From the NCBI GenBank assembly GCA_012839395.1, contig DUNJ01000018.1:1-34732 (forward strand): DNA of 34,732 nucleotides. The letters are read 5' to 3'. A program made the position numbers and the translations under genes. A model generated the notes under the pieces. That model had not been told where the DNA came from. It made no database searches and saw nothing but the letters and a program-made list of their open reading frames with translations. This document shows, piece after piece, positions 4,610 to 32,977 of this stretch (position 1 is the stretch's first letter; each line of letters starts with the position of its first letter). This stretch comes from Tepidimicrobium sp. (lineage in GTDB: Bacteria > Bacillota > Clostridia > Tissierellales > Tepidimicrobiaceae).

Positions 4610-6364
4610 TTGATTTTGAAGGGGGGAATAGGGAAGTTGCTTAAAAAATTTGCTTCCTATTATAGTTCGCATAAGAAGTTGTTTGCATTGGATATGTTCT
4701 GTGCATTACTTGTGGCCGTATTTGATTTAATATTTCCCATGGTTTCGAGGAATATTGTCAATGTAATCATCCCAGAGGGAAGGATGGATCTCCTAGTTAA
4801 ATGGACCGTTATAATGATTATAATGTTCATATTTAGATATGTAAGTTACTATATAGTATCCTATTGGGGACATGTTTTAGGCGTATATATTGAACATGAT
4901 ATGAGAAGAGATCTCTTTTCACACCTGCAGACCCTATCCTTTGAATACTATGATAATACGAAAACCGGCCATATAATGTCTAGGCTGGTAAATGATCTAA
5001 GAGATATTACCGAATTAGCCCACCACGGGCCAGAGGATATATTTATTTCTACAACGATGCTGGTAGGTTCATTTATATTGTTGGTGAGAATAGAATGGCG
5101 GTTGACTCTAATCATATTTTCTTCCATTCCATTTATGATTTGGTTTGCCATATCTAAAAGGAAAAAGATGGAGGAGTCCTTCAGAGAGGTTAGAAGAAAA
5201 ATAGCTAATATAAATGCTCAGCTGGAGAATAGTATCTCTGGCATAAGGGTAGCTCAGTCCTTCACCAACGAGGATTACGAAATAGAAAAGTTTGCTAAAG
5301 GAAATCATCAGTTTAAGGAAGCTAGAAAGCATTCCTATAAGATTATGGCAGAATTTGCTGCAGGCATAGGTCTAACTACCAATGTGCTCAACCTATTGGT
5401 GATTAGCGCGGGAGGATACTTCATCTATAGGGGCTATATAAATGTTGGGGATTTAGTTGCTTATATGCTGTATGTAAACTTCTTTATGCAGCCTATAAGA
5501 AGGTTATCGGATTTTATGCAACAATTTCAAGATGGTATGAGTGGATTTGAGAGGTTTGTAGAGGTGTTGGAGATCGAACCGGATATAGTAGATAAGGAAG
5601 ATGCTATAGAGCTAAAGGATGTAAAAGGGAATATCAAATTTGAAGGGGTATCCTTTAGCTATGCCGATGATAAGGATAAGGTTCTATCCAATCTAAATCT
5701 AGAGATTCAACAGGGTAAAACAGTTGCCATTGTAGGTCCATCCGGCGCAGGTAAGACCACCTTGTGTCATTTGATACCTAGATTCTATGAAATAGATGAA
5801 GGACGAATATTTATCGATGGCATAAATATAAATGATATCAAACTAAAATCCCTTAGGCAGAATATTGGACTAGTACAACAAGATGTGTTTTTATTTACAG
5901 GCACCATAATGGACAATATATCCTATGGGGATCCTAGCAAATCGGAGGAGGAAATAATAGAGGCAGCTAAGAAGGCACGTATCCATGATTTTATATCCAC
6001 ATTGCCTAATGGATATGACACCTATATAGGGGAGAAGGGAGTAATGCTATCAGGGGGACAGAAGCAGAGAATATCCATAGCGAGGTTATTCTTGAAGAAT
6101 CCACCTATTTTAATATTGGATGAGGCCACCTCAGCGTTAGATAATGAAACTGAAATACAAATTCAATCCTCATTGGAAGAATTGTCTAAGGGAAGAACAA
6201 CCTTGATAATTGCCCATAGACTATCTACCATAAAGAACGCTGATGAGATATTGGTATTAACGGACAAGGGAATTGCTGAAAAGGGAAGCCACGAGAAATT
6301 GCTGGATAAGGGCTCTATATATGCGAATCTATATAAATCCCAATTTGGGGGCTTAGTATCATAA
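4610..6364 (+). CDS. ABC transporter, fused permease/ATP-binding protein (MsbA/LmrA-like exporter)
   Basis: TM domain, Walker A GPSGAGKTT, signature LSGGQKQR, Walker B ILILDEATSALD, H-loop IAHRLST. Confidence 0.93.
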   Translation: MILKGGIGKLLKKFASYYSSHKKLFALDMFCALLVAVFDLIFPMVSRNIVNVIIPEGRMDLLVKWTVIMIIMFIFRYVSYYIVSYWGHVLGVYIEHDMRRDLFSHLQTLSFEYYDNTKTGHIMSRLVNDLRDITELAHHGPEDIFISTTMLVGSFILLVRIEWRLTLIIFSSIPFMIWFAISKRKKMEESFREVRRKIANINAQLENSISGIRVAQSFTNEDYEIEKFAKGNHQFKEARKHSYKIMAEFAAGIGLTTNVLNLLVISAGGYFIYRGYINVGDLVAYMLYVNFFMQPIRRLSDFMQQFQDGMSGFERFVEVLEIEPDIVDKEDAIELKDVKGNIKFEGVSFSYADDKDKVLSNLNLEIQQGKTVAIVGPSGAGKTTLCHLIPRFYEIDEGRIFIDGININDIKLKSLRQNIGLVQQDVFLFTGTIMDNISYGDPSKSEEEIIEAAKKARIHDFISTLPNGYDTYIGEKGVMLSGGQKQRISIARLFLKNPPILILDEATSALDNETEIQIQSSLEELSKGRTTLIIAHRLSTIKNADEILVLTDKGIAEKGSHEKLLDKGSIYANLYKSQFGGLVS

Positions 6365-6369
6365 AAGAT

Positions 6370-6417
6370 CAAAAAAAGCCTTCTTTGCGCATTATTTAGA
6401 TGCAAGGAAGGCTTTTA
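6370..6417 (+). terminator. Rho-independent-type terminator after ABC transporter
   Basis: AAAAAGCCTTC ... GAAGGCTTTT stem. Confidence 0.75.
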
Positions 6418-6540
6418 CTATGGCAGAAACGGCCATATATATGTCATAAATTTGTAATGAATAATTGGGCCTTTTATAGTATCCTATATGTATATGCCAA
6501 CTTTTTTAAATTTTTTAGCAAAGGCGGAAGGAGGATATCT

Positions 6541-7239
6541 ATGGACTTAGCTGGCAACATACTCATTGTGGAGGATGAAGAATCCATAAGAAAGTTTGTT
6601 AGGATAAATCTTGAGAGGGCCAATTTTTTGGTTAGGGAGGCTGAAACAGGTGAGGAAGGGCTTAGGATTGTGCAGGAAGAAGAGATAGATTTAGTGGTAC
6701 TTGATATAATGTTGCCTGGCATAGATGGGTTTGAGGTGTGTAAAAAGTTGAGGGAACAATTTCCTAGAATCGGAATAATAATGCTTACCGCAAAATCCCA
6801 AGATATTGACAGGATTATAGGGTTGGAACATGGAGCAGATGATTATATGGTAAAGCCTTTCAATCCAAGGGAATTGGTCCTTAGGATAGAATCCCTTCTC
6901 AGAAGGATTAAAGGATCTATAGGGGAAGCACCTAATATGATCATTTATGACCCTTTTACTATGGATACATATTCTAGAAAGTTTTTTAAAAGTCAAAGCA
7001 AAATAGATTTAACTCCTACGGAATTCTCAATAATAAAGCTATTCATTGGTAACCCAGGTAGAGCCTTTACTAGGGATGAAATATTGAATTTAGTCTGGGG
7101 ATACGATTTTATGGGGGATTCAAAGATTGTGGATGTGAATATAAGGCGATTGCGTTCTAAGATAGAGGATGAACCTAGTAAGCCTTATTATATTGAAACC
7201 GTGTGGGGATTAGGCTATAGGTGGAGAGATAAGGAATAA
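6541..7239 (+). CDS. OmpR/PhoB-family response regulator
   Basis: Receiver domain (ILIVEDEESIRK, VVLDIMLPGIDG, MLTAKSQD, VKPF) plus winged-helix DNA-binding domain. ATG at 6541 follows GGAAGGAGG; the longer ORF start at 6400 is unlikely. Confidence 0.93.
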   Translation: MDLAGNILIVEDEESIRKFVRINLERANFLVREAETGEEGLRIVQEEEIDLVVLDIMLPGIDGFEVCKKLREQFPRIGIIMLTAKSQDIDRIIGLEHGADDYMVKPFNPRELVLRIESLLRRIKGSIGEAPNMIIYDPFTMDTYSRKFFKSQSKIDLTPTEFSIIKLFIGNPGRAFTRDEILNLVWGYDFMGDSKIVDVNIRRLRSKIEDEPSKPYYIETVWGLGYRWRDKE

Positions 7240-7255
7240 CTTTTAGGAGGACAAC

Positions 7256-8659
7256 ATGAAATCCAGTATAAGAAAAAGGCTAGTAGGAAACTTTATGTTA
7301 GTTATAATCATCACCGTGGTGATACTGGAGATATTCCTATTCAATGGAGTGCGACATTATTATTATAGAGGTATAGAGGAGATACTATTCAATCAACTAT
7401 TATTTACATCGGATATCTATTCTAGGTACTTTTCTGCTACAAACCTAGAGGATATGATAATCGATGATATAGATGTATTTTTATATCAAACAGATGCCCA
7501 GGTTCAAATATTAAATTTGGAAGGTAAGGTGTTAATGGATTCAATAGGAGTAATCCATCAATTCAATGCAATAGATACTAGCGATATATTAATGGCCTTG
7601 GATGGGGAAAAAGGGGTTTGGATTGGAAGTGTGGAATATGATACATCACCAGTTATGGCGATATCATATCCATTGAAGATAGAAGATAGGATTGTAGGTG
7701 TATTGAGGTTTATTACATCCCTTGAGGAAACAAACAGCATAATAAATAGTATTGCTAAGGTATTACTTATATTTGGATTGGTGGTAATTTTCATATCTGG
7801 AGGGGTTAGTCTCTTATTAGCCAACACCATAATAAAACCATTGGAAGATATAACGAAGGTGGCAGAAAAGATGGCCGCTGGTCAGCTGAAAGTTAGATCC
7901 GGAACAAAATTTAATGATGAGATTGGGAAACTTTCCGACACTTTAAATTATATGGCTGACGAGCTTATAAGAAAGGAACAGCTTAAAAATGATTTCATAT
8001 CTTCCATATCCCACGAACTGAGAACCCCCCTAACTTCCATCAAGGGTTGGGCTATCACTCTACAAGGAGCACAATTGAGTAAAAATCCCCTGTTTAAAGA
8101 TGGATTAAAGATAATAGAGCAGGAAAGCGATAGGTTGGGGAATATGGTAGATGAACTACTAGATTTTTCGAAATTTGTATCTGGAAGGATTGCCTTGAAT
8201 AGGGAAGAGGTGGATATTGGGGATATAGTGGATAGGATTAGCAAGCAATTACAGCCTAAGGCGAAGGAATCCAATATATCTTTAAAGGTTTTTCAAGAAT
8301 CAAACTTACCCATTATACTTGCCGATGTAAATAGGGTCAAGCAAGTGTTTATCAATCTGTTAGACAATGCGTTTAAATTTACACCTAAGGGGGGCAAGGT
8401 TTCGGTAAAAACTAGTCATAAAAAGGATATGGTAGTAATTGAAATAGAGGATAACGGTTCCGGAATAGCCAAGGAGGATATTCCACATATTAAGGAAAGA
8501 TTTTATAAGGGAAAAAATAGCAGATCAAATAGCGGATTGGGGCTTTCTATATGCGATGAAATAATGGATCTGCATGGTGGTTCTATGGAAATAGAAAGTC
8601 AATTGAATAAGGGGACAAAGGTTAAAGTGTCCTTTCCAATAGGGAGTGGTACAAGGTGA
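7256..8659 (+). CDS. Sensor histidine kinase (HAMP, HisKA, HATPase)
   Basis: Two TM helices flanking an extracellular domain; SISHELRTPLTSIKGW H-box; N box LLDNAFKFTP; G boxes DNGSGI and GLGLSI. Confidence 0.93.
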   Translation: MKSSIRKRLVGNFMLVIIITVVILEIFLFNGVRHYYYRGIEEILFNQLLFTSDIYSRYFSATNLEDMIIDDIDVFLYQTDAQVQILNLEGKVLMDSIGVIHQFNAIDTSDILMALDGEKGVWIGSVEYDTSPVMAISYPLKIEDRIVGVLRFITSLEETNSIINSIAKVLLIFGLVVIFISGGVSLLLANTIIKPLEDITKVAEKMAAGQLKVRSGTKFNDEIGKLSDTLNYMADELIRKEQLKNDFISSISHELRTPLTSIKGWAITLQGAQLSKNPLFKDGLKIIEQESDRLGNMVDELLDFSKFVSGRIALNREEVDIGDIVDRISKQLQPKAKESNISLKVFQESNLPIILADVNRVKQVFINLLDNAFKFTPKGGKVSVKTSHKKDMVVIEIEDNGSGIAKEDIPHIKERFYKGKNSRSNSGLGLSICDEIMDLHGGSMEIESQLNKGTKVKVSFPIGSGTR

Positions 8660-10182
8660 TTAAAAGGCTATCGTATTGGATTATATTGATAATATTGTCC
8701 TTATTATTAGTAGCTTGTGGACCAAGCAATATGAATTTATCGGAAAATATAATGGCACCTAGGAATAGGATATTGCCTATCACTGGGAAATGGGTTATAG
8801 AGGATTATAAACTTGGAAGCACCCCCGAGATAGATGAAGATATGGCTAGGGCTTATGTAGGCAAGGAAGCTTTATTTCATGAAAAATTGGTTACCATAGG
8901 GGAGGATATCTGTTGGGAGCCATCCTTCCAGATAAAGGTAGCGGATCCTAATGATTATCTGATACATCGATATAAGGTTGCTCCAGAATATTTAAATATA
9001 GATCAGGATGAGGTACAAATAGTATCGGTAGAATGTGAAGATCAAATATTTAACGAATATATTAAGCTATCCGAGAACAAGCTTATTATTGGCATAAAGG
9101 GTACATTTTTTATAATGGAAAAGGTTGCTGAACATATAGAGCCTGAGCTTATAGCGGAATATTATAAGGATAGAAAGGCAGGGATTAAAGCAGCGGATAT
9201 GGGAGCAGATGAAGAACCCAATTCTAGCATATTGATTGGGCTTAAATCCTTGGACTTGAATAGAACCGAGGATGGTCTAGCCAATTGGCAATATAGAACC
9301 ATCTTTATAAGAAGGGATTTCCAGGGTATAGCGAGTATATATGAAATGGAGGATATATTTTTGCCTAGAAAGAAGGGGTTTTCTAAGGTGGAGGTGGATA
9401 GGATAAAACTGGGGAGAAAGGTTAACGATAGAATAGTAGTATCTAGCCTAGGTCAAACATCTGATTTAGAATTGGAGGTTAATGAAGTTAATAATGATAG
9501 AAAAGATTTTAATAGACATAAAGATGACAGAACCCTTAAGAACATATTATATATAGGAAACGATTATATTTCAGTGGAAAAAACTCACTATTTAGGTAAG
9601 GGAGAAAGAGTTTTGGAATTGCATATGATAGATCATCTAGATAAGGAAAGACCCTTAAAAATTTCTGATGTATCTGGAGAAATTGGTAGAGAGGCCTTTA
9701 TGGAGGGAGCTAAAAAAGCCATAAGAACGAAGTATGTAGACCAGAAGAGCAGTTCTATAGATTTAAAACCCAATGAGGAGAACTTTGGTTTATTTAGAAG
9801 AAGTGGACATTGGATATTTAGAGGTAGATTGGATATAGTTGAGGATAATCAATACAGTTATAAGGATTTCAATATAAAGGCAACACCTCCAAAGGAACTG
9901 GTCCAGTATGATGAATTACCCATATCGTGGAATCGGATAAAGATTAAAATACCAGAGGCGGTCGATGCATTTATATCCCCACATGAGGATATGCTAGTCG
10001 CATTAACCCATAATGCGATGTTGATATATCCGATAGATGAGGGGGAGATAGCTTATGCACCGGAAGCTGAGATAGAGCTAAACAGTGCAGAAAGGGTTAT
10101 TATGAGCGAGTGGGCTATAGGTAAGTATGCCTTAGCTTGGGAGGAAGAATTTTTAGATAATAAGGCTTATCCATTGAAGTGA
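8656..10182 (+). CDS. Secreted lipoprotein of unknown function
   Basis: Lipobox LLLVACGPS; GTG start overlaps the kinase stop (GTGA), implying translational coupling. Confidence 0.8.
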   Translation: MIKRLSYWIILIILSLLLVACGPSNMNLSENIMAPRNRILPITGKWVIEDYKLGSTPEIDEDMARAYVGKEALFHEKLVTIGEDICWEPSFQIKVADPNDYLIHRYKVAPEYLNIDQDEVQIVSVECEDQIFNEYIKLSENKLIIGIKGTFFIMEKVAEHIEPELIAEYYKDRKAGIKAADMGADEEPNSSILIGLKSLDLNRTEDGLANWQYRTIFIRRDFQGIASIYEMEDIFLPRKKGFSKVEVDRIKLGRKVNDRIVVSSLGQTSDLELEVNEVNNDRKDFNRHKDDRTLKNILYIGNDYISVEKTHYLGKGERVLELHMIDHLDKERPLKISDVSGEIGREAFMEGAKKAIRTKYVDQKSSSIDLKPNEENFGLFRRSGHWIFRGRLDIVEDNQYSYKDFNIKATPPKELVQYDELPISWNRIKIKIPEAVDAFISPHEDMLVALTHNAMLIYPIDEGEIAYAPEAEIELNSAERVIMSEWAIGKYALAWEEEFLDNKAYPLK

Positions 10183-25255: not shown

Positions 25256-25347
25256 ATGTTATAATAGGAAGTGATGATGTCCTAGATATTGACAGTAATA
25301 GTTTGTTTATGTAATATTACATTACAGAAGTTATCGGAGGTGTTTTG

Positions 25348-25710
25348 ATGGTAGAGAGACCCGACATTGGAAGAAGGATTAGAGACGCTAGACAGAAAAA
25401 CAGGCTAAGTCAATCGGAAGTAGTGGATAGACTTATGGAATACGGTATAAGTATGAGTAGGGAAACGCTAAGTAAAATTGAAAATAATAACAGGTCCGTA
25501 TCAGCCATAGAGCTAAATGCATTGTGCAATATATTCGATGTAGATATGAATGAAATTTTTGCTAAGGAACCGAAGGAAGAGGATTTGGTGACTTTTTTTA
25601 GGAAAAAAAATGCCTCGGAGAATACATTAATAGAGATTGCTAGGTTGCAAGATATGATAAGAACTTTTATCAAACATGAAAAGATGTATATGGAAGGGTT
25701 GAATTCATAA
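25348..25710 (+). CDS. XRE-family helix-turn-helix regulator
   Basis: GRRIRDARQKNRLSQSEVVDRLMEYGISMSRETLSKIENNNRSVSAIELNALCNIFDVDMNEIF is a typical HTH_3 domain. Confidence 0.92.
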   Translation: MVERPDIGRRIRDARQKNRLSQSEVVDRLMEYGISMSRETLSKIENNNRSVSAIELNALCNIFDVDMNEIFAKEPKEEDLVTFFRKKNASENTLIEIARLQDMIRTFIKHEKMYMEGLNS

Positions 25711-25724
25711 AATTAAGCGGGAGG

Positions 25725-26522
25725 ATGGATTCATTGAAGAAGGAGATAAATATTCCAGAAGAATTATTTAGACTTAGAATGAAGGAATTGGCTGAAGACG
25801 TACGGATTAAATTTGCTAAGAGGGGAGTATCGGATATATTCGATATACTTTCAAAGATTGCATTTTTAATACGTAAGCCATTGGATACTCATGAATTATC
25901 CGGATTTATTACCTATTTTGAAGATCGATTTATAGTATATCTAAATAGCGGATTTACATTAGGGCATGAACGATATACGGCAGCCCATGAACTATATCAT
26001 ATTGTGTATAATGAGGATATATTAAAAAAGGAAAAGGTTTTTTTAGACAAGGAAAGGTATAAAGATGAAGATATAAGGGCAGATGTATTTGCTGCAGAAT
26101 TTCTAATGCCCGAGGACTATGTAAAGGAGGTATTTTATAGGACTGTAAATGTAGATATGGATGAGGTTCTTCCAAAGCATATAATTCGTATGCATAATCA
26201 TTTTAAGGTAAGTTATAAGGCTATGTTAAAAAGGCTTATTCAACTTAAATTGTGTTCTATGGATAGATATTTTGATCTTTTAGAGATTTGTTCTCTAGAC
26301 AATAAGGATAAACTTCAATCCTTAACCAGGAAGGAAGGCTATACAATAGATTTAATAATCCCATCAAATACAGTATATGTTCCGGAGGAATATGTTGTAT
26401 ATGTAAAATCTAACTACGAAAATGGAAGAATATCCTATGAGGATATGAAGAAGAGCTTTAAATTTATAGATTTGGATCCTATGGATTTTGGATACGAGAA
26501 AAACAAGCAATATAATATGTGA
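25725..26522 (+). CDS. ImmA/IrrE family metallopeptidase
   Basis: Zinc-binding AAHELYHIVYN (HExxH) and RADVFAAEFLMPEDYV; paired with an XRE gene. Confidence 0.9.
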   Translation: MDSLKKEINIPEELFRLRMKELAEDVRIKFAKRGVSDIFDILSKIAFLIRKPLDTHELSGFITYFEDRFIVYLNSGFTLGHERYTAAHELYHIVYNEDILKKEKVFLDKERYKDEDIRADVFAAEFLMPEDYVKEVFYRTVNVDMDEVLPKHIIRMHNHFKVSYKAMLKRLIQLKLCSMDRYFDLLEICSLDNKDKLQSLTRKEGYTIDLIIPSNTVYVPEEYVVYVKSNYENGRISYEDMKKSFKFIDLDPMDFGYEKNKQYNM

Positions 26523-26536
26523 TTTTCCACCAATTA

Positions 26537-26592
26537 AAATTGTCGTTGATCTTTGGTCGTACAAAAATTCCTAGAGATCGATGACAATTTTA
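26537..26592 (+). terminator. Terminator-like hairpin separating ImmA/IrrE from the CARF genes
   Basis: AAAATTGTCGTTGATCTTTGG ... CCTAGAGATCGATGACAATTTT, imperfect long stem with flanking T tract. Confidence 0.65.
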
Positions 26593-26634
26593 TTATTTGC
26601 TGAGATGTTCGAAAATAATAATTATGTATAAAAA

Positions 26635-26663
26635 TTGAACTTATTGGTATAAAGTGCTACAAT
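26635..26663 (+). promoter_or_regulatory. Putative sigma-A promoter of the CARF-HEPN operon
   Basis: TTGAAC-17 bp-TACAAT, ~50 bp upstream of the 26714 start and after a terminator. Confidence 0.6.
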
Positions 26664-26713
26664 AATATCAAAACGAAAAACCTATACTTTTTTCTTTTTA
26701 CTAAGGTGATTAT

Positions 26714-27940
26714 ATGGAAAGTAATTTAACGACGTTAATTTCGCTTATAGGCAAAGGGAAAACAGAGGAAGGAACTAAAGGATATATAAGCACTAGATAT
26801 TATTATGATGAAACTAAAGATACTATATATACATCCTTCTTTGGCTCTGCTTTGTACAAAATTCTTAAAAAACAAGATCATAATATAGATACATGGCTTA
26901 TATTTGGAACTAATAAATCCAGCTGGTCAGAGCTTCTTTATGTAATTGAAGAAAAACACCATGATAAGATGATCGAACTATACGACACAGTTTATGATGA
27001 AGAAAATGAAGGCATCTCCCAACCTCTACTCTCCCAATGGGAACAAGCCCTTCAAAAGCATGTGCCGGGATTGCGTTTAATCTTAGTAGATCCTTTAGAT
27101 TATCAGATTTATATAGATCGTATGATACATGAAATCCCCGATACTAAAAGGAGAGTAGTTCTTGATATAACCCACGCTTTTAGACATATGCCTGTTATAA
27201 TTGCTTTTTCGTTAATGACACTCAAACATATCAAAGATATATCTGATATTATGGTATATTACGGTGCCCTTGAACTAAAGACAAACAGGAATGATCAAAA
27301 CGAGCCTACCCCTATATTAAAAATCGATTTTATCAATAATTTAGTCTCATATGCTGAAAATATTGCAGTATTTAATTACTCTGGATATTTTCCTAATATT
27401 TTGGATAATCTAAATATTTCCAAAACAGACAAAACTTATTTTTGGCTTGAAATGAATAGGCAACCAAGAACCGATTTGGAAACAATCAATATGAATCTAA
27501 AAGAAAAATCGAAGGAAAACAATCATCAAGGTAAAATAGCGGAATATATAAATAAAGAAATAGAGCCACTTACAGGTGCATCATTACATAGAAGAATGAT
27601 AGAAAGGTCAAAATTCTTTTTTGCTAGAAAACAGTATTTGCAATCATTAGTATTATTACACGAAGGGCTTATTATAGCTATGAGTAGAAAATATGGATTA
27701 GAACATGGACAAGACTATGATGGATATAGGGCTGTCAGAGATTATATCAAGGATAATAAGAATACTATATTTAAAGACAAGGCTCAGATAGACGCTTATT
27801 ATAAGTTAGTACATACAAGGAACTCAGCTGTTCATGGTACTACAGCTAGAGGAACCCAAAACTTTTTAGAACAAGAGGAACATTATGAAGCCTTATTTAA
27901 AGAAGGTATAGAAATATATAAATATATAACGGGGGAATAA
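26714..27940 (+). CDS. CARF-HEPN CRISPR-associated ribonuclease (Csx1/Csx2, TIGR02221/TM1812-like)
   Basis: N-terminal ISLIGKG...YYYDETKDTIYTSFFGSALYKIL; CARF signature VVLDITHAFRHMPVIIAFSLM; C-terminal HEPN motif HTRNSAVHG (R-x4-H). Confidence 0.82.
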   Translation: MESNLTTLISLIGKGKTEEGTKGYISTRYYYDETKDTIYTSFFGSALYKILKKQDHNIDTWLIFGTNKSSWSELLYVIEEKHHDKMIELYDTVYDEENEGISQPLLSQWEQALQKHVPGLRLILVDPLDYQIYIDRMIHEIPDTKRRVVLDITHAFRHMPVIIAFSLMTLKHIKDISDIMVYYGALELKTNRNDQNEPTPILKIDFINNLVSYAENIAVFNYSGYFPNILDNLNISKTDKTYFWLEMNRQPRTDLETINMNLKEKSKENNHQGKIAEYINKEIEPLTGASLHRRMIERSKFFFARKQYLQSLVLLHEGLIIAMSRKYGLEHGQDYDGYRAVRDYIKDNKNTIFKDKAQIDAYYKLVHTRNSAVHGTTARGTQNFLEQEEHYEALFKEGIEIYKYITGE

Positions 27941-27942
27941 TT

Positions 27943-29649
27943 ATGTTAAAATTTATATCCTTATTAGGGACTAATCAGTACTTACCCTGCAATTATTATT
28001 TTGATGAATATAAGGCAAACGATTGCTGCTACATCCAAGAAGCTTTGGTACAAATATTAGCCGAAAATGACATAGTACCTGACAAAATAACTATATTTAC
28101 AACAGAAGATTCTTACAATAAAAATTGGATAGCAAATGCGTATAATGATACTAGGCCAGGATTAAATGAAGAGTTGAATAATATATCTAAAAAATTTCAC
28201 ATTCCCGTGGAAAATGTAATGATACCTGAAGGACATAATGAAGAGGAGTTATGGGAAATATTTAATGCCATATTAGATCAATTGGAGAAAGAAGATGAAA
28301 TAATATTAGACATTACTCATTCTTTCAAATACTTGGCTATGTTAACATTTATAGTAATAAACTATGCACGTATTGTAAAAAACTGCAGTCTTAAAGCCAT
28401 ATATTATGGAGCTTTTGATGTATTAGGATATACACGTGAAGTAGAAAAACTTCCTATAGAAGAAAGAAATGCACCAATATTTGATCTTACATCTTTTACA
28501 AATCTATTTGATTGGACTATTGCAATTGATAGATATTTAGCTACAGGAGATGCATCTTTGGTAAAAAATTTAACCTCCTTAGAAATTAAAAAAATAAACG
28601 AGAAAATAGGTAGGAAGGTTTCTGAATCAAATTTAGACAAATCTATTTTATTTAAAGACCCCAATGCCCTAAGAGATCTTTCTAAATCTATGGATAATTT
28701 TAGTAATACTGTGGCTACATGTAGAGGACCTAATCTTACCAGTGCAATATCTTCTCTTAAGGAAAGTATCCATACTGTAGTAGAAAATGCAGCCCATGAA
28801 AGGATAAAACCTCTAAGCCCTATAATGGAAATGGTTGAAAAAAAGTTTGATAGCTTTAGCCACACTGATGAATATATAAATACAATAGAAACAGCCAAAT
28901 GGTGCCATGAAAATAAAATGTATCAACAAGGACTTACTATCTTACAAGAAGGGCTTATAAATTATGTTTGTGAAAAATGGGGCTTGGATAGGTTAAGTTT
29001 AACAAATAGGGATAAAGTTGGTGCTATTGCCTGTTATGTAAAAGAACACCCTATTGAAGCTGATTATAAATCACTAGGCTTAAATGAACAAAATGCTAAA
29101 GATTTATTAATGTTAATTTATAATGTTGGGGATATGAGAAATGATATAAATCATGCAGGCTGGAGAGAGCAAACTAATAAAGTAAATAAATTTAGCACAA
29201 ATTTAAAAGACTTCATTCAAAGGGCCGAAATCATTTTAACCAATGATTCTAACAATGTGGAAGGGAAATACAGGCAATTATTATTAATGTTTTCACATGA
29301 TCTGACAGAAGAACAGAAGTCTGAAGCAAAAGAAAAGTTTAATATATCACGATTTATAAAACTTAATGATGAGCTTTCAAATAAATGGGCAAATGTTCCC
29401 CCACATTTGGATGATCTAGGAGAATACCTTGAAGAATTTAAAGAGTGGTTAGATGAAAAAGGGCAGGTTGGGGATTATGTTTTAATCCAAGGAGACTTTG
29501 GTGCCACCATGTCAATGGTGGAATATGCTAAAAGCAAAAAAATTATTCCAATATATGCAACTACAGAGAGGAATGTAGTAGAAGAAAAAACAGGCGAGAC
29601 TATAAAAATATCACGGGAATTTAAACACGTGATGTTTAGAAAATATTAA
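27943..29649 (+). CDS. CARF-HEPN CRISPR-associated protein fused to C-terminal Csx20-like domain
   Basis: N-terminal MLKFISLLGTNQYLPCNYYFD; CARF signature EIILDITHSFKYLAML; HEPN motif MRNDINHAG (R-x4-H); residues ~442-567 LLLMFSHDLTEEQ...WANVPPHLDDL...GDYVLIQGDFGATMSMVEYAKSKKIIPIYATTER...REFKHVMFRKY resemble stand-alone Csx20. Confidence 0.78.
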   Translation: MLKFISLLGTNQYLPCNYYFDEYKANDCCYIQEALVQILAENDIVPDKITIFTTEDSYNKNWIANAYNDTRPGLNEELNNISKKFHIPVENVMIPEGHNEEELWEIFNAILDQLEKEDEIILDITHSFKYLAMLTFIVINYARIVKNCSLKAIYYGAFDVLGYTREVEKLPIEERNAPIFDLTSFTNLFDWTIAIDRYLATGDASLVKNLTSLEIKKINEKIGRKVSESNLDKSILFKDPNALRDLSKSMDNFSNTVATCRGPNLTSAISSLKESIHTVVENAAHERIKPLSPIMEMVEKKFDSFSHTDEYINTIETAKWCHENKMYQQGLTILQEGLINYVCEKWGLDRLSLTNRDKVGAIACYVKEHPIEADYKSLGLNEQNAKDLLMLIYNVGDMRNDINHAGWREQTNKVNKFSTNLKDFIQRAEIILTNDSNNVEGKYRQLLLMFSHDLTEEQKSEAKEKFNISRFIKLNDELSNKWANVPPHLDDLGEYLEEFKEWLDEKGQVGDYVLIQGDFGATMSMVEYAKSKKIIPIYATTERNVVEEKTGETIKISREFKHVMFRKY

Positions 29650-29680
29650 TATAAGATAATACAATTTAGGAGGTGGGGGG

Positions 29681-29770
29681 ATGATTGACAATTATGATGT
29701 AGCCCTTGCTGTACTATTAAGTGTAACCTATCCAAGGCCTATATATTTCTGGCCTCTTATATTTTTATAA
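29681..29770 (+). CDS. Putative 29-aa hydrophobic peptide
   Basis: AGGAGGTGGGGGG-ATG followed by MIDNYDVALAVLLSVTYPRPIYFWPLIFL*; could also be a decayed gene start. Confidence 0.35.
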   Translation: MIDNYDVALAVLLSVTYPRPIYFWPLIFL

Positions 29771-29771
29771 A

Positions 29772-29799
29772 TTGACAAATTAATTATATTAAATATGAT
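29772..29799 (+). promoter_or_regulatory. Putative promoter of first arsR
   Basis: TTGACA-16 bp-TATGAT. Confidence 0.55.
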
Positions 29800-29889
29800 A
29801 TATGTAAGAGTTAAATATATGTTTACTAAATGATTTGGACATATAGGGGAAATATAGATAAAAGAGGATAGAATATGGAGGTGAAAATA

Positions 29890-30252
29890 GTGGATTTAGT
29901 ACAGGTAATGAAGGCACTTGCAGATGAAACAAGACTAAGGATACTAAATATATTAGTAGAAGGAGCCCTATGTGTGTGTGAAATTGAAGAAATACTTGGA
30001 ATCTCTCAGTCTAATGCTTCTAGACATTTAAATAGATTAACTAATGTAAAAATATTAGAAAGTTATAAGGTGGGAAACTATGTATATCATAAGTTTTCCC
30101 AGGAAGGGATACAGGAATATCCCTTTATCAAAGAAATAGTAGAAGACCATACTATGAAGCACGACCTATATAAAAAAGATTATGAAAGATTAAATAAATA
30201 CAGGGAAAGTGGCTTTTCATGTGATGAGCTTAAGGATGGCCAGGTTTTTTAA
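29890..30252 (+). CDS. ArsR-family metalloregulator
   Basis: KALADETRLRILNILVEGALCVCEIEEILGISQSNASRHLNRL; GTG at 29890 preceded by GGAGGTG (alternative ATG 29875). Confidence 0.9.
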   Translation: MDLVQVMKALADETRLRILNILVEGALCVCEIEEILGISQSNASRHLNRLTNVKILESYKVGNYVYHKFSQEGIQEYPFIKEIVEDHTMKHDLYKKDYERLNKYRESGFSCDELKDGQVF

Positions 30253-30299
30253 TAAAATTAAAACTTGATTATGGAGGAAAAATAGGTATGAAACCTAAT

Positions 30300-30509
30300 T
30301 AATTACAGATATTCCAGAAGCAGATATAGTTATAAAGATGGGGGGGGAATGCGGTATGGCCTAGTCTTTCTTCCAAGCACCAGGAGGATTGGGGATTAGA
30401 AGATCCAATAGGAAAAGGCAGGGAGGAATTTGTTAAAACAGCCAAAATAATTGAAGAGAAAATAAAGGGCTTAGCAGAAAGAATAAAAAATAAAGAGATA
30501 AAATTATAA
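30300..30509 (+). pseudogene. arsC: Arsenate reductase (LMW-PTP-type ArsC) remnant
   Basis: DIPEADIVIKMG, frameshift at an 8-G run, then VWPSLSSKHQEDWGLEDPIGKGREEFVKTAKIIEEKIKGL*; the N-terminal catalytic half is missing. Confidence 0.75.
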
Positions 30510-30536
30510 AAAAGTCAGCATTTGCTAACTTTTTTT
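30508..30536 (+). terminator. Terminator between arsC remnant and cobW-like gene
   Basis: AAAAAAGTCAGC-ATTT-GCTAACTTTTTTT. Confidence 0.7.
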
Positions 30537-30557
30537 ATTTTTACATATGTTAAGGTC

Positions 30558-30586
30558 TTGACAAGATTAAATATTATGATTACAAT
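30558..30586 (+). promoter_or_regulatory. Near-consensus sigma-A promoter upstream of cobW-like gene
   Basis: TTGACA-17 bp-TACAAT. Confidence 0.75.
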
Positions 30587-30654
30587 ATGACTAAATACAC
30601 ATATGGACATATAGGCATGAAGAGATATATCTATTATAAAAAGGAGGTAATCCT

Positions 30655-31587
30655 ATGGAGAAGAAGGCAAGATTATACTTATTAACAGGATTTTTAGGGG
30701 CAGGGAAAACAACTTTTCTTACTAATGTACTAGAGGATTTAGATGAAAATAAGGTAGCTGTTATAATGAATGAATTTGGGAAAGAAGGTATTGATGGAAC
30801 CATAATTGAAAAGGAAGGAATGGAGCTTGTAGAGTTAAATAGGGGTTCCATATTTTGTTCTTGCTTACAACTTTCCTTTGTATCAGCCTTAGTGGAAATG
30901 TCAGATAGAAATATGGAATACGTTTTTGTGGAAAGTTCTGGACTTGCAGACCCATCTAACATTGGAGAATTTTTAGAGGCCGTAAAGGTTGCTAAGGGAG
31001 ATGTTTATGACTATAGTGGAGCTATTTGTATAGTTGATGGGGTAAACTTTTTAGAACAATTAGAAGACATAGAAACAGTAGAAAGGCAGCTTAAGTTTTG
31101 CCATCTAACTATTGTATCTAAGGTAGATCTAATAGACGGGGAGAAATTAGAAAAGGTTAAGGCAAAAATTAAAGAAATTAATCCTAAGGTAAATATTATA
31201 GAGTCTGTAAATGGGCAAATAGATTATAATTTATTAGAAAAAGATTTACTAGAAGAAGACTGGTTGGGAGTTGAAGATACTACTAATACACCAGAAAACA
31301 GGCCTAAAACTTTAACCTTAACCTATGAAGGCGAAGTAAGTAAAGAAAAGTTGACCCAGTTTCTAGATATTATTAAAAAAGATAGTTATAGAATAAAGGG
31401 CTTTTTTAGGCTAGATGATGGTTGGAACCAAGTAGATGTGGTAAATAAAATTATAGACTATAAACCTACAGATAAGGTTCAAGAAAAATCTGAGTTAGTA
31501 ATAATATCTAAAATAGGACCACAAATAATTAGGCCTATATTTAATACTTGGGAAGAAATAGTGGGACGGGAAATGAAATTAAGATAA
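30655..31587 (+). CDS. CobW/COG0523-family P-loop GTPase (putative metallochaperone)
   Basis: LLTGFLGAGKTTFLTNVL; VAVIMNEFG; RGSIFCSCLQ (variant of the family CxCC motif); FVESSGLADP; SKVDLID. Confidence 0.9.
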   Translation: MEKKARLYLLTGFLGAGKTTFLTNVLEDLDENKVAVIMNEFGKEGIDGTIIEKEGMELVELNRGSIFCSCLQLSFVSALVEMSDRNMEYVFVESSGLADPSNIGEFLEAVKVAKGDVYDYSGAICIVDGVNFLEQLEDIETVERQLKFCHLTIVSKVDLIDGEKLEKVKAKIKEINPKVNIIESVNGQIDYNLLEKDLLEEDWLGVEDTTNTPENRPKTLTLTYEGEVSKEKLTQFLDIIKKDSYRIKGFFRLDDGWNQVDVVNKIIDYKPTDKVQEKSELVIISKIGPQIIRPIFNTWEEIVGREMKLR

Positions 31588-31598
31588 GGAGTGGCAAG

Positions 31599-31946
31599 GT
31601 GGAAAAATTAATAAATTTCTTTAAACTACTATCTGACGAAACTCGTTTAAGGATATTAGTTCTTTTATATCATGATGATTTTTGTGTATGTCAGCTAGCA
31701 GGTATAATGAGAATTTCCCAACCTAATGTGTCTAAACATTTAGCAGGGCTTAGGGATATGAGCTTGGTAAGAGATGAGAAGAGGGAACAGTATACCTTCT
31801 ACTCTCTTAATATAGAAGAAAAAATGTTTCAGGATATTTTTGAAAAAATCGTTGCCAATCTAGATAAGTATCCAGTTTTAAAGTCTGATATAAAAGAGAG
31901 TGAAGATGCAGAGAAGTACATTGAGCTGGCTAATATAAATAAATAA
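31599..31946 (+). CDS. ArsR-family metalloregulator
   Basis: FKLLSDETRLRILVLLYHDDFCVCQLAGIMRISQPNVSKHLAGLRDMSLV; GTG at 31599 with GGAGTGG upstream. Confidence 0.9.
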   Translation: MEKLINFFKLLSDETRLRILVLLYHDDFCVCQLAGIMRISQPNVSKHLAGLRDMSLVRDEKREQYTFYSLNIEEKMFQDIFEKIVANLDKYPVLKSDIKESEDAEKYIELANINK

Positions 31947-31960
31947 AAGGTGGGGTTTAA

Positions 31961-32977
31961 ATGGGGTTAGTATCAAGTATATTTAGTTGGCTAAATGCTC
32001 AATTTTTAAAAATGGAGTGGCTATGGAATCTAGTTGAGCTATTAGTGGAGAAAGTTTTTGGTTTATCTATGAGTACTAGGATAGGTGGCAGTGTTCATTT
32101 CTTTATATATGATACTATAAAAATATTTATTTTGCTATCTGTTATGATATATATAATATCCTATATCCAATCCTATTTTCCTCCAGAGAGAACAAAGAAA
32201 CTTTTAGGTGGGATTGCAGGGATTAAAGGAAACATATTAGGGGCTCTCTTAGGAATATTAACTCCTTTTTGCTCCTGTTCTAGTATCCCAATTTTTATAG
32301 GTTTTGTATCAGCAGGATTACCTTTAGGGGCAACCTTCTCCTTCCTTATATCTTCACCTATGATAGATTTGGCTGCCTTTATGTTGTTAATGTCAACCTT
32401 TGGGGTTAAAATTGGAGTAATATATGTAGTTGTAGGTGTACTTGTTGCAATAATAGGTGGGATTGTAATTCAAAAATTAAAAATGGATGAGTATGTGGAA
32501 TCCTATGTATGGGATGTAGAAGCCCAGGAGGTAGAAATTGAAGAATTATCCCATAAAGACAGGTTGGAGTTTTCCAAAAATCAGGTAAAAGATATAGTAG
32601 GTAGGGTATGGCCCTATATACTTGTTGGGGTAGGAATAGGGGCTGGGATTCATAATTGGCTACCCCAATCAATAATAGAGAAGGTTTTAGGAAGTGGGAA
32701 TCCATTTTCAGTTTTAATAGCAACCTTTATTGGAGTGCCTATATACGCTGATATTTTTGGAACTATACCTATAGCGGAAGCCTTAGTTGCCAAGGGGGTA
32801 GGCATTGGGACTGTAGTAGCCTTTATGATGGGGGTAACTACCATGTCTATACCTTCTATGGTAATGCTAAGTAAGGTGGTAAAACCTAAACTGTTAGGAA
32901 CCTTCATAGTGGTAACTACTATAGGTATAATGATAGTTGGTTATGGACTTAATGCTTTATCATTCCTATTTATTTAA
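31961..32977 (+). CDS. arsP: ArsP-type permease (UPF0718/DUF318)
   Basis: Multi-TM with GALLGILTPFCSCSSIPIFIGFVSAGLPLGATFSFLISSPMID and VGVGIGAGIHNWLP. Confidence 0.85.
   Translation: MGLVSSIFSWLNAQFLKMEWLWNLVELLVEKVFGLSMSTRIGGSVHFFIYDTIKIFILLSVMIYIISYIQSYFPPERTKKLLGGIAGIKGNILGALLGILTPFCSCSSIPIFIGFVSAGLPLGATFSFLISSPMIDLAAFMLLMSTFGVKIGVIYVVVGVLVAIIGGIVIQKLKMDEYVESYVWDVEAQEVEIEELSHKDRLEFSKNQVKDIVGRVWPYILVGVGIGAGIHNWLPQSIIEKVLGSGNPFSVLIATFIGVPIYADIFGTIPIAEALVAKGVGIGTVVAFMMGVTTMSIPSMVMLSKVVKPKLLGTFIVVTTIGIMIVGYGLNALSFLFI

Follow-up and report, generated by a model that had tools for sequence, protein, structure and literature searches.

The window, by which we mean the whole 34,732-nt stretch of DNA analysed here, carries two adjacent CARF-HEPN genes, which we call gene A and gene B in their order of appearance. 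Very probably, the two genes make up the effector module of a type III-A CRISPR locus from which the cas10-csm2-csm3-csm4-csm5-cas6 block and the array were deleted. The window is colinear with the complete loci of relatives and keeps residual cas10 sequence at the edge of the pair. Since the rest of the type III-A system would have been deleted, the pair represents, on this reading, a remnant of evolution, not a novel type of system. Its architecture is already known: it is that of an ordinary type III-A effector module, left behind after the deletion.

Domains and predicted functions of the gene pair

Gene A (26714-27940, forward strand) encodes a Csx1-type CARF-HEPN protein of 408 aa. Gene B (27943-29649, forward strand) starts 2 nt after the stop codon of gene A and encodes a CARF-HEPN-Csx20 fusion of 568 aa. 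The former matches the PADLOC CARF_HEPN model PDLC01827 over its full length (E = 5e-156), the latter matches the PADLOC CARF_HEPN_CSX20 model PDLC01843 over its whole length (E = 2e-170), and TIGR02221 matches both (E = 1e-25 and 2e-28, respectively). The open reading frames and these matches agree with the initial annotation, which described two CARF-HEPN genes 2 nt apart and regarded the two effectors as divergent from each other. The two proteins are indeed only around 21-25% identical. Both have a CARF domain with the DxTH motif (the DxTHG motif of TIGR02549) and an intact Rx4H motif in the HEPN domain: RNSAVH at residues 369-374 in gene A and RNDINH at residues 399-404 in gene B. The CARF motif of gene B, located by homologue alignment (DITHSFKYLA, 28309-28338, forward strand), departs from DxTHxFRxxP at two positions (R129K and P132A), whereas this motif is invariant in all other aligned homologues, gene A included. 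Built from four sequences, an AlphaFold2 model of gene B reached only a low confidence (mean pLDDT of 57.6, with the CARF part below 50), and a PDB sequence search with the gene pair returned no matches.

The C-terminal domain of gene B (residues 446-568, 29278-29646, forward strand) is predicted to be a Csx20 ring-nuclease-like domain. It matches the NCBIfam Csx20 profile NF040559 over positions 1-124 of 124, above the cut-off (E = 1.4e-46), which is consistent with the earlier proposal that the extra domain of the second protein serves in signal turnover. Csx1 proteins are cA4-activated RNases (PMC11229360). Csx20, which is strongly associated with Csx1, is a cA4 ring nuclease, as shown experimentally for another Csx20 protein (PMC12409355). 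Genes A and B resemble Csx1 (TIGR02221, PADLOC CARF2--CARF_HEPN) in domain order, in the DxTH motif of the CARF domain, and in the Rx4H motif of the HEPN domain. Like the Csx1 of type III CRISPR systems, they stand before cas10 in relatives; the window differs in lacking cas10, and gene B in having K and A where the CARF motif has R and P. The architecture of gene B shows no difference from that of the CARF-HEPN-Csx20 fusions of PDLC01843. It would also follow the principle of the Csx1-Crn2 fusion, a self-limiting RNase-ring nuclease (Samolygo 2020, as described in PMC12409355), in that the effector and the putative messenger-degrading domain are in one chain, but the fused ring nuclease is Csx20 instead of Crn2. 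By homology, gene B may thus be regarded as the Csx20 version of such a self-limiting fusion.

Judging from their sequences, genes A and B are most likely RNases of a type III-A CRISPR alarm response triggered by cA4; this ligand, the RNase activity, and the ring nuclease activity are all predictions. In an intact locus, cyclic tetra-adenylate would be produced by Cas10 once it has bound a target RNA. Binding of this messenger to the CARF domains of the two proteins would switch on the HEPN RNase, and the Csx20 domain fused to gene B would cut the messenger, thereby limiting the response.

Complete loci in relatives and the flanks of the pair

The best homologues of gene B in GTDB genomes are those of [Clostridium] ultunense DSM 10521 (L007, 81% identical), Clostridium sp. 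Cult1 (L008, 79%), and a Tissierellia MAG (L009, 65%), and the counterparts of gene A in these loci are 83%, 82%, and 67% identical, respectively. All three genomes have a complete type III-A locus with the gene order A - B - cas10 - csm2 - csm3 - csm4 - csm5 - cas6 (the genes of the Cult1 locus were identified with PADLOC). An array of 27 repeats lies upstream of gene A in Cult1, and CRISPR repeats also stand in front of gene A in C. ultunense. The Cas10 sequences of the three loci all read GGDD. By eye, the N-terminal HD motif seems to be missing from the three proteins (L007:5673-7907, L008:6327-8561, and L009:3867-6110), and as this usual motif is seemingly absent they would be signalling-only enzymes. 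Compared with the loci of C. ultunense and Cult1, the window has a pair that is 79-83% identical, the same upstream promoter region, and the same start of cas10; these loci are complete, whereas the window has lost everything from cas10 to cas6 as well as the array. The initial annotation had stated that direct linkage of these genes to a complete type III locus in related genomes would make the pair a conventional accessory module, and this is what the survey of the neighbourhoods of homologous pairs revealed in three relatives, with the same gene order.

Directly behind gene B, the window retains the ribosome-binding site of cas10 and its first 12 codons (29650-29716, forward strand). The ATG is at 29681, and the codons span 29681-29716 (MIDNYDVALAVL). 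The 67 bases of this region are 96% identical to the boundary between gene B and cas10 in G016 and G017 (E around 3e-23), which as whole-genome entries correspond to Cult1 and C. ultunense. In the alignment, identity to intact cas10 stops abruptly after the stub, whose frame continues in translation to a stop at 29768-29770, making 29 codons in all. The stub is fused directly to the promoter region of the adjacent ars operon, with its hairpin (29727-29825, forward strand); this marks the right edge of the presumed deletion. The region is 75% identical to one that in G017 and G015 separates two genes which, from our own reading of the proteins, we take to be acr3 and a DUF2703-like gene. The ars-like operon of the window (29875-32977) is composed of ArsR, a CobW GTPase, ArsR, and an ArsP permease. 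In relatives, arsR is preceded by the DUF2703-like gene, which this operon lacks. A paralogous copy of the operon lies on contig C244 of this genome.

The junction (29717-29727) might be an assembly chimera, in which case the real chromosome would have a full type III-A locus. We regard this as decidedly unlikely. The junction is seen in one contig of a single, fragmented MAG (249 contigs), and the stub is nearly undecayed at 96% over 67 bases, which are points in favour of a chimera. However, the junction sequence is not repeated elsewhere in the assembly, where only the ars stretch further right is paralogous, and no other contig carries a piece of cas10 or a repeat of the window locus, the distinct relic on contig C74 (see below) aside. 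Furthermore, the array side was lost as well, and relatives show comparable losses. We infer that a deletion, as opposed to an assembly join, caused the junction.

On the other side of the pair, between immA and gene A, lies a stretch resembling a CRISPR leader, with a AATTGTCGTTGATCT...AGATCGATGACAATTT inverted repeat (26541-26616, forward strand). It is 71-78% identical to stretches that precede CRISPR arrays in G005, G001, and G018, where they are flanked by the array on one side and by the last cas gene (or gene A) on the other. Given this similarity, it is probably a piece of a CRISPR leader, with no repeats left: the search for CRISPR repeats in the window gave no match within 3 mismatches. 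At the window locus there is thus neither an array nor an intact cas10 or csm gene, 12 codons of cas10 being left. The statement that the window had no cas genes or array is valid for intact genes, of which there are none, and for the array, but not for the stub of cas10 behind gene B or the leader-like stretch. The promoter-like TTGAAC-17-TACAAT upstream of gene A, also put forward in the initial annotation, is present (26635-26663, forward strand), and its region is 84% conserved in C. ultunense and Cult1, where it lies between the array and gene A. However, matches of this type are at chance level in the AT-rich window (31 vs 28.4 ± 5.8 in shuffles). Directly to the left of the relic, an XRE and ImmA-like pair (25345-26522) matches PDC-M69A/B, a candidate defence pair of PADLOC (E = 2.5e-34 for the ImmA-like protein); contig C51 of this genome carries a second copy of ImmA.

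Cas10 in the source genome and in the family

The source assembly is a MAG of 1.86 Mb in 249 contigs, estimated to be 80.6% complete. Searches with the Cas10 palm and with whole Cas10 gave, besides a GGDEF protein, matches on contig C74 only. There, a second cas10 (C74:6247-7235) is shattered by frameshifts and runs into the HEPN tail of a Csx1; it is followed by an intact cas6 and one lone CRISPR repeat (6247-8660 for the whole relic). This relic adjoins a gerA-like spore germination operon. We found no intact cas10 and no cas1 in this 80.6% complete assembly, nor further repeats of the C74 type elsewhere in it. The search for arrays with unrelated repeats covered the window and individually examined contigs. 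A palm2 match on contig C134 was rejected as Cas10 because it falls within that part of a 1797-aa protein which bears GGDEF. In the search with the Cmr2_hel_dom2 profile, the control matched in no genome.

Relatives of gene B are present in 10 of the 20 genomes of the family, and cas10 of the pair-linked type is present in six. The loci are linked in G016, G017, G006, G001, G018, and G005; in G010, the homologue of gene B stands beside a different type III locus; and in the window, G004, and G007 there is no linkage. In G004, genes A and B (the latter with an in-frame TGA) are followed by sequence reading as the tail of csm5 and then by cas6. At the gerA site, where the source genome has its C74 relic, G007 carries gene A together with a Csx1, cas6, and decayed repeats; besides this pair-like relic, it has a distant type III locus, which lies on a different contig. 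In the order, gene A was found in 9 of 249 genomes, and in all nine it lies next to a type III-A locus, the relic of such a locus, or CRISPR repeats. For instance, it adjoins an array at the end of a contig in G001, and in G019 it is cut short, contains stops, and runs into csm3. The decayed type III-A locus of G019 (L111:3289-8359) consists of cas6, the truncated gene A, csm3, csm4, csm5, and cas6, with cas10 and csm2 gone. In G006, gene A stands alone between degenerate CRISPR repeats (L109:10014-11231) and the genome has an intact type III-A locus on a different contig; this lone gene A is a candidate for an effector acting in trans. The losses of cas10 in G004 and G019 are comparable to that of the window, and the one in G007 probably is too. 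Because the breakpoints, from which we infer the number of loss events, differ among genomes, cas10 appears to have been lost more than once in the family with the effectors left behind. Relatives of gene A or B were absent from viral contigs. The search of phages, for which only gene B was used as query, gave none, and that of plasmids gave none for gene A and only distant csx2/csx20 genes for gene B.

The initial annotation had offered two explanations for the pair, of which the first was that it serves a distant type III system. A Cas10 encoded elsewhere in the genome and missing from the assembly would then supply cyclic tetra-adenylate in trans. The MAG is 80.6% complete, CRISPR loci assemble poorly, and both genes are under purifying selection (see below); moreover, the arrangements in G006 and G007 described above provide precedents for this separation. 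On the other hand, the Cas10 searches gave only the broken C74 copy, the assembly has no cas1 and a single repeat relic, and two genomes of the same genus (82% and 96% complete) have neither the pair-type cas10 nor the pair. Such a distant system is unlikely, though conceivable in view of the limited completeness of the assembly. The second explanation was an orphan system using a non-CRISPR signal, and it was not borne out, given the complete linked loci of three relatives and the cas10 stub in the window. A stand-alone defence system sensing such a nucleotide, e.g., from a CD-NTase, is extremely improbable. Several genomes of the family do retain effectors with no cas10 linked to them, and the replacement of two invariant CARF residues in gene B could mean a changed ligand. 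However, the SMODS/CD-NTase profile PF18144 had no match at E = 0.1 in the 80.6% complete source genome (the control matched in 5 genomes), every locus with a gene A homologue has type III genes or CRISPR relics, and the stub shows descent from a Cas10-linked state.

Selection and present state of the pair

When only close relatives were included, omega on the window branch was 0.12 for gene A and 0.22 for gene B, i.e., the genes are under purifying selection, and it did not differ from that of relatives keeping cas10 (p = 0.42 and p = 0.28, respectively). As this branch also covers the period preceding the loss, the low values are no proof of use after it. The CARF part of gene B alone gave an omega of 0.355 vs 0.095, a weak signal (p = 0.018, uncorrected). 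We discarded two other signs of change. Faster protein evolution relative to C. ultunense (25:10 for gene A and likewise for gene B) was dropped as an indication of relaxed constraint because unrelated neighbour genes show a similar excess on the window branch (three genes together, 43:10). A high omega of gene B in a five-taxon branch test was rejected because synonymous sites were saturated relative to the outgroups; it vanished when only close relatives were used.

In this genome, the pair would be idle or would respond only to cyclic oligoadenylate from elsewhere. Since we found no working Cas10 in the genome, the pair is most likely idle; the likeliest present state would be an early stage of decay, with no known trigger in this genome in the absence of Cas10. 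That both genes are intact and under purifying selection is a counterpoint to the remnant of a deleted locus, as it would be unexpected for useless genes after an old loss. It is very improbable that the family repeatedly loses cas10 while keeping the Csx1/Csx1-Csx20 pair under selection for a Cas10-independent use. If it were true, this use might consist, for example, in sensing another cyclic nucleotide or in degrading cyclic oligoadenylates from incoming elements.

These results suggest that seemingly orphan CARF effectors can be what remains of a type III locus after its deletion. The tell-tale signs are a stub of the start of cas10 or a leader without repeats, and searching for them is a useful check before claiming an orphan nucleotide-signalling system. 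The repeated loss of cas10 with retention of effectors in one family would make it a small natural experiment on effector decay.
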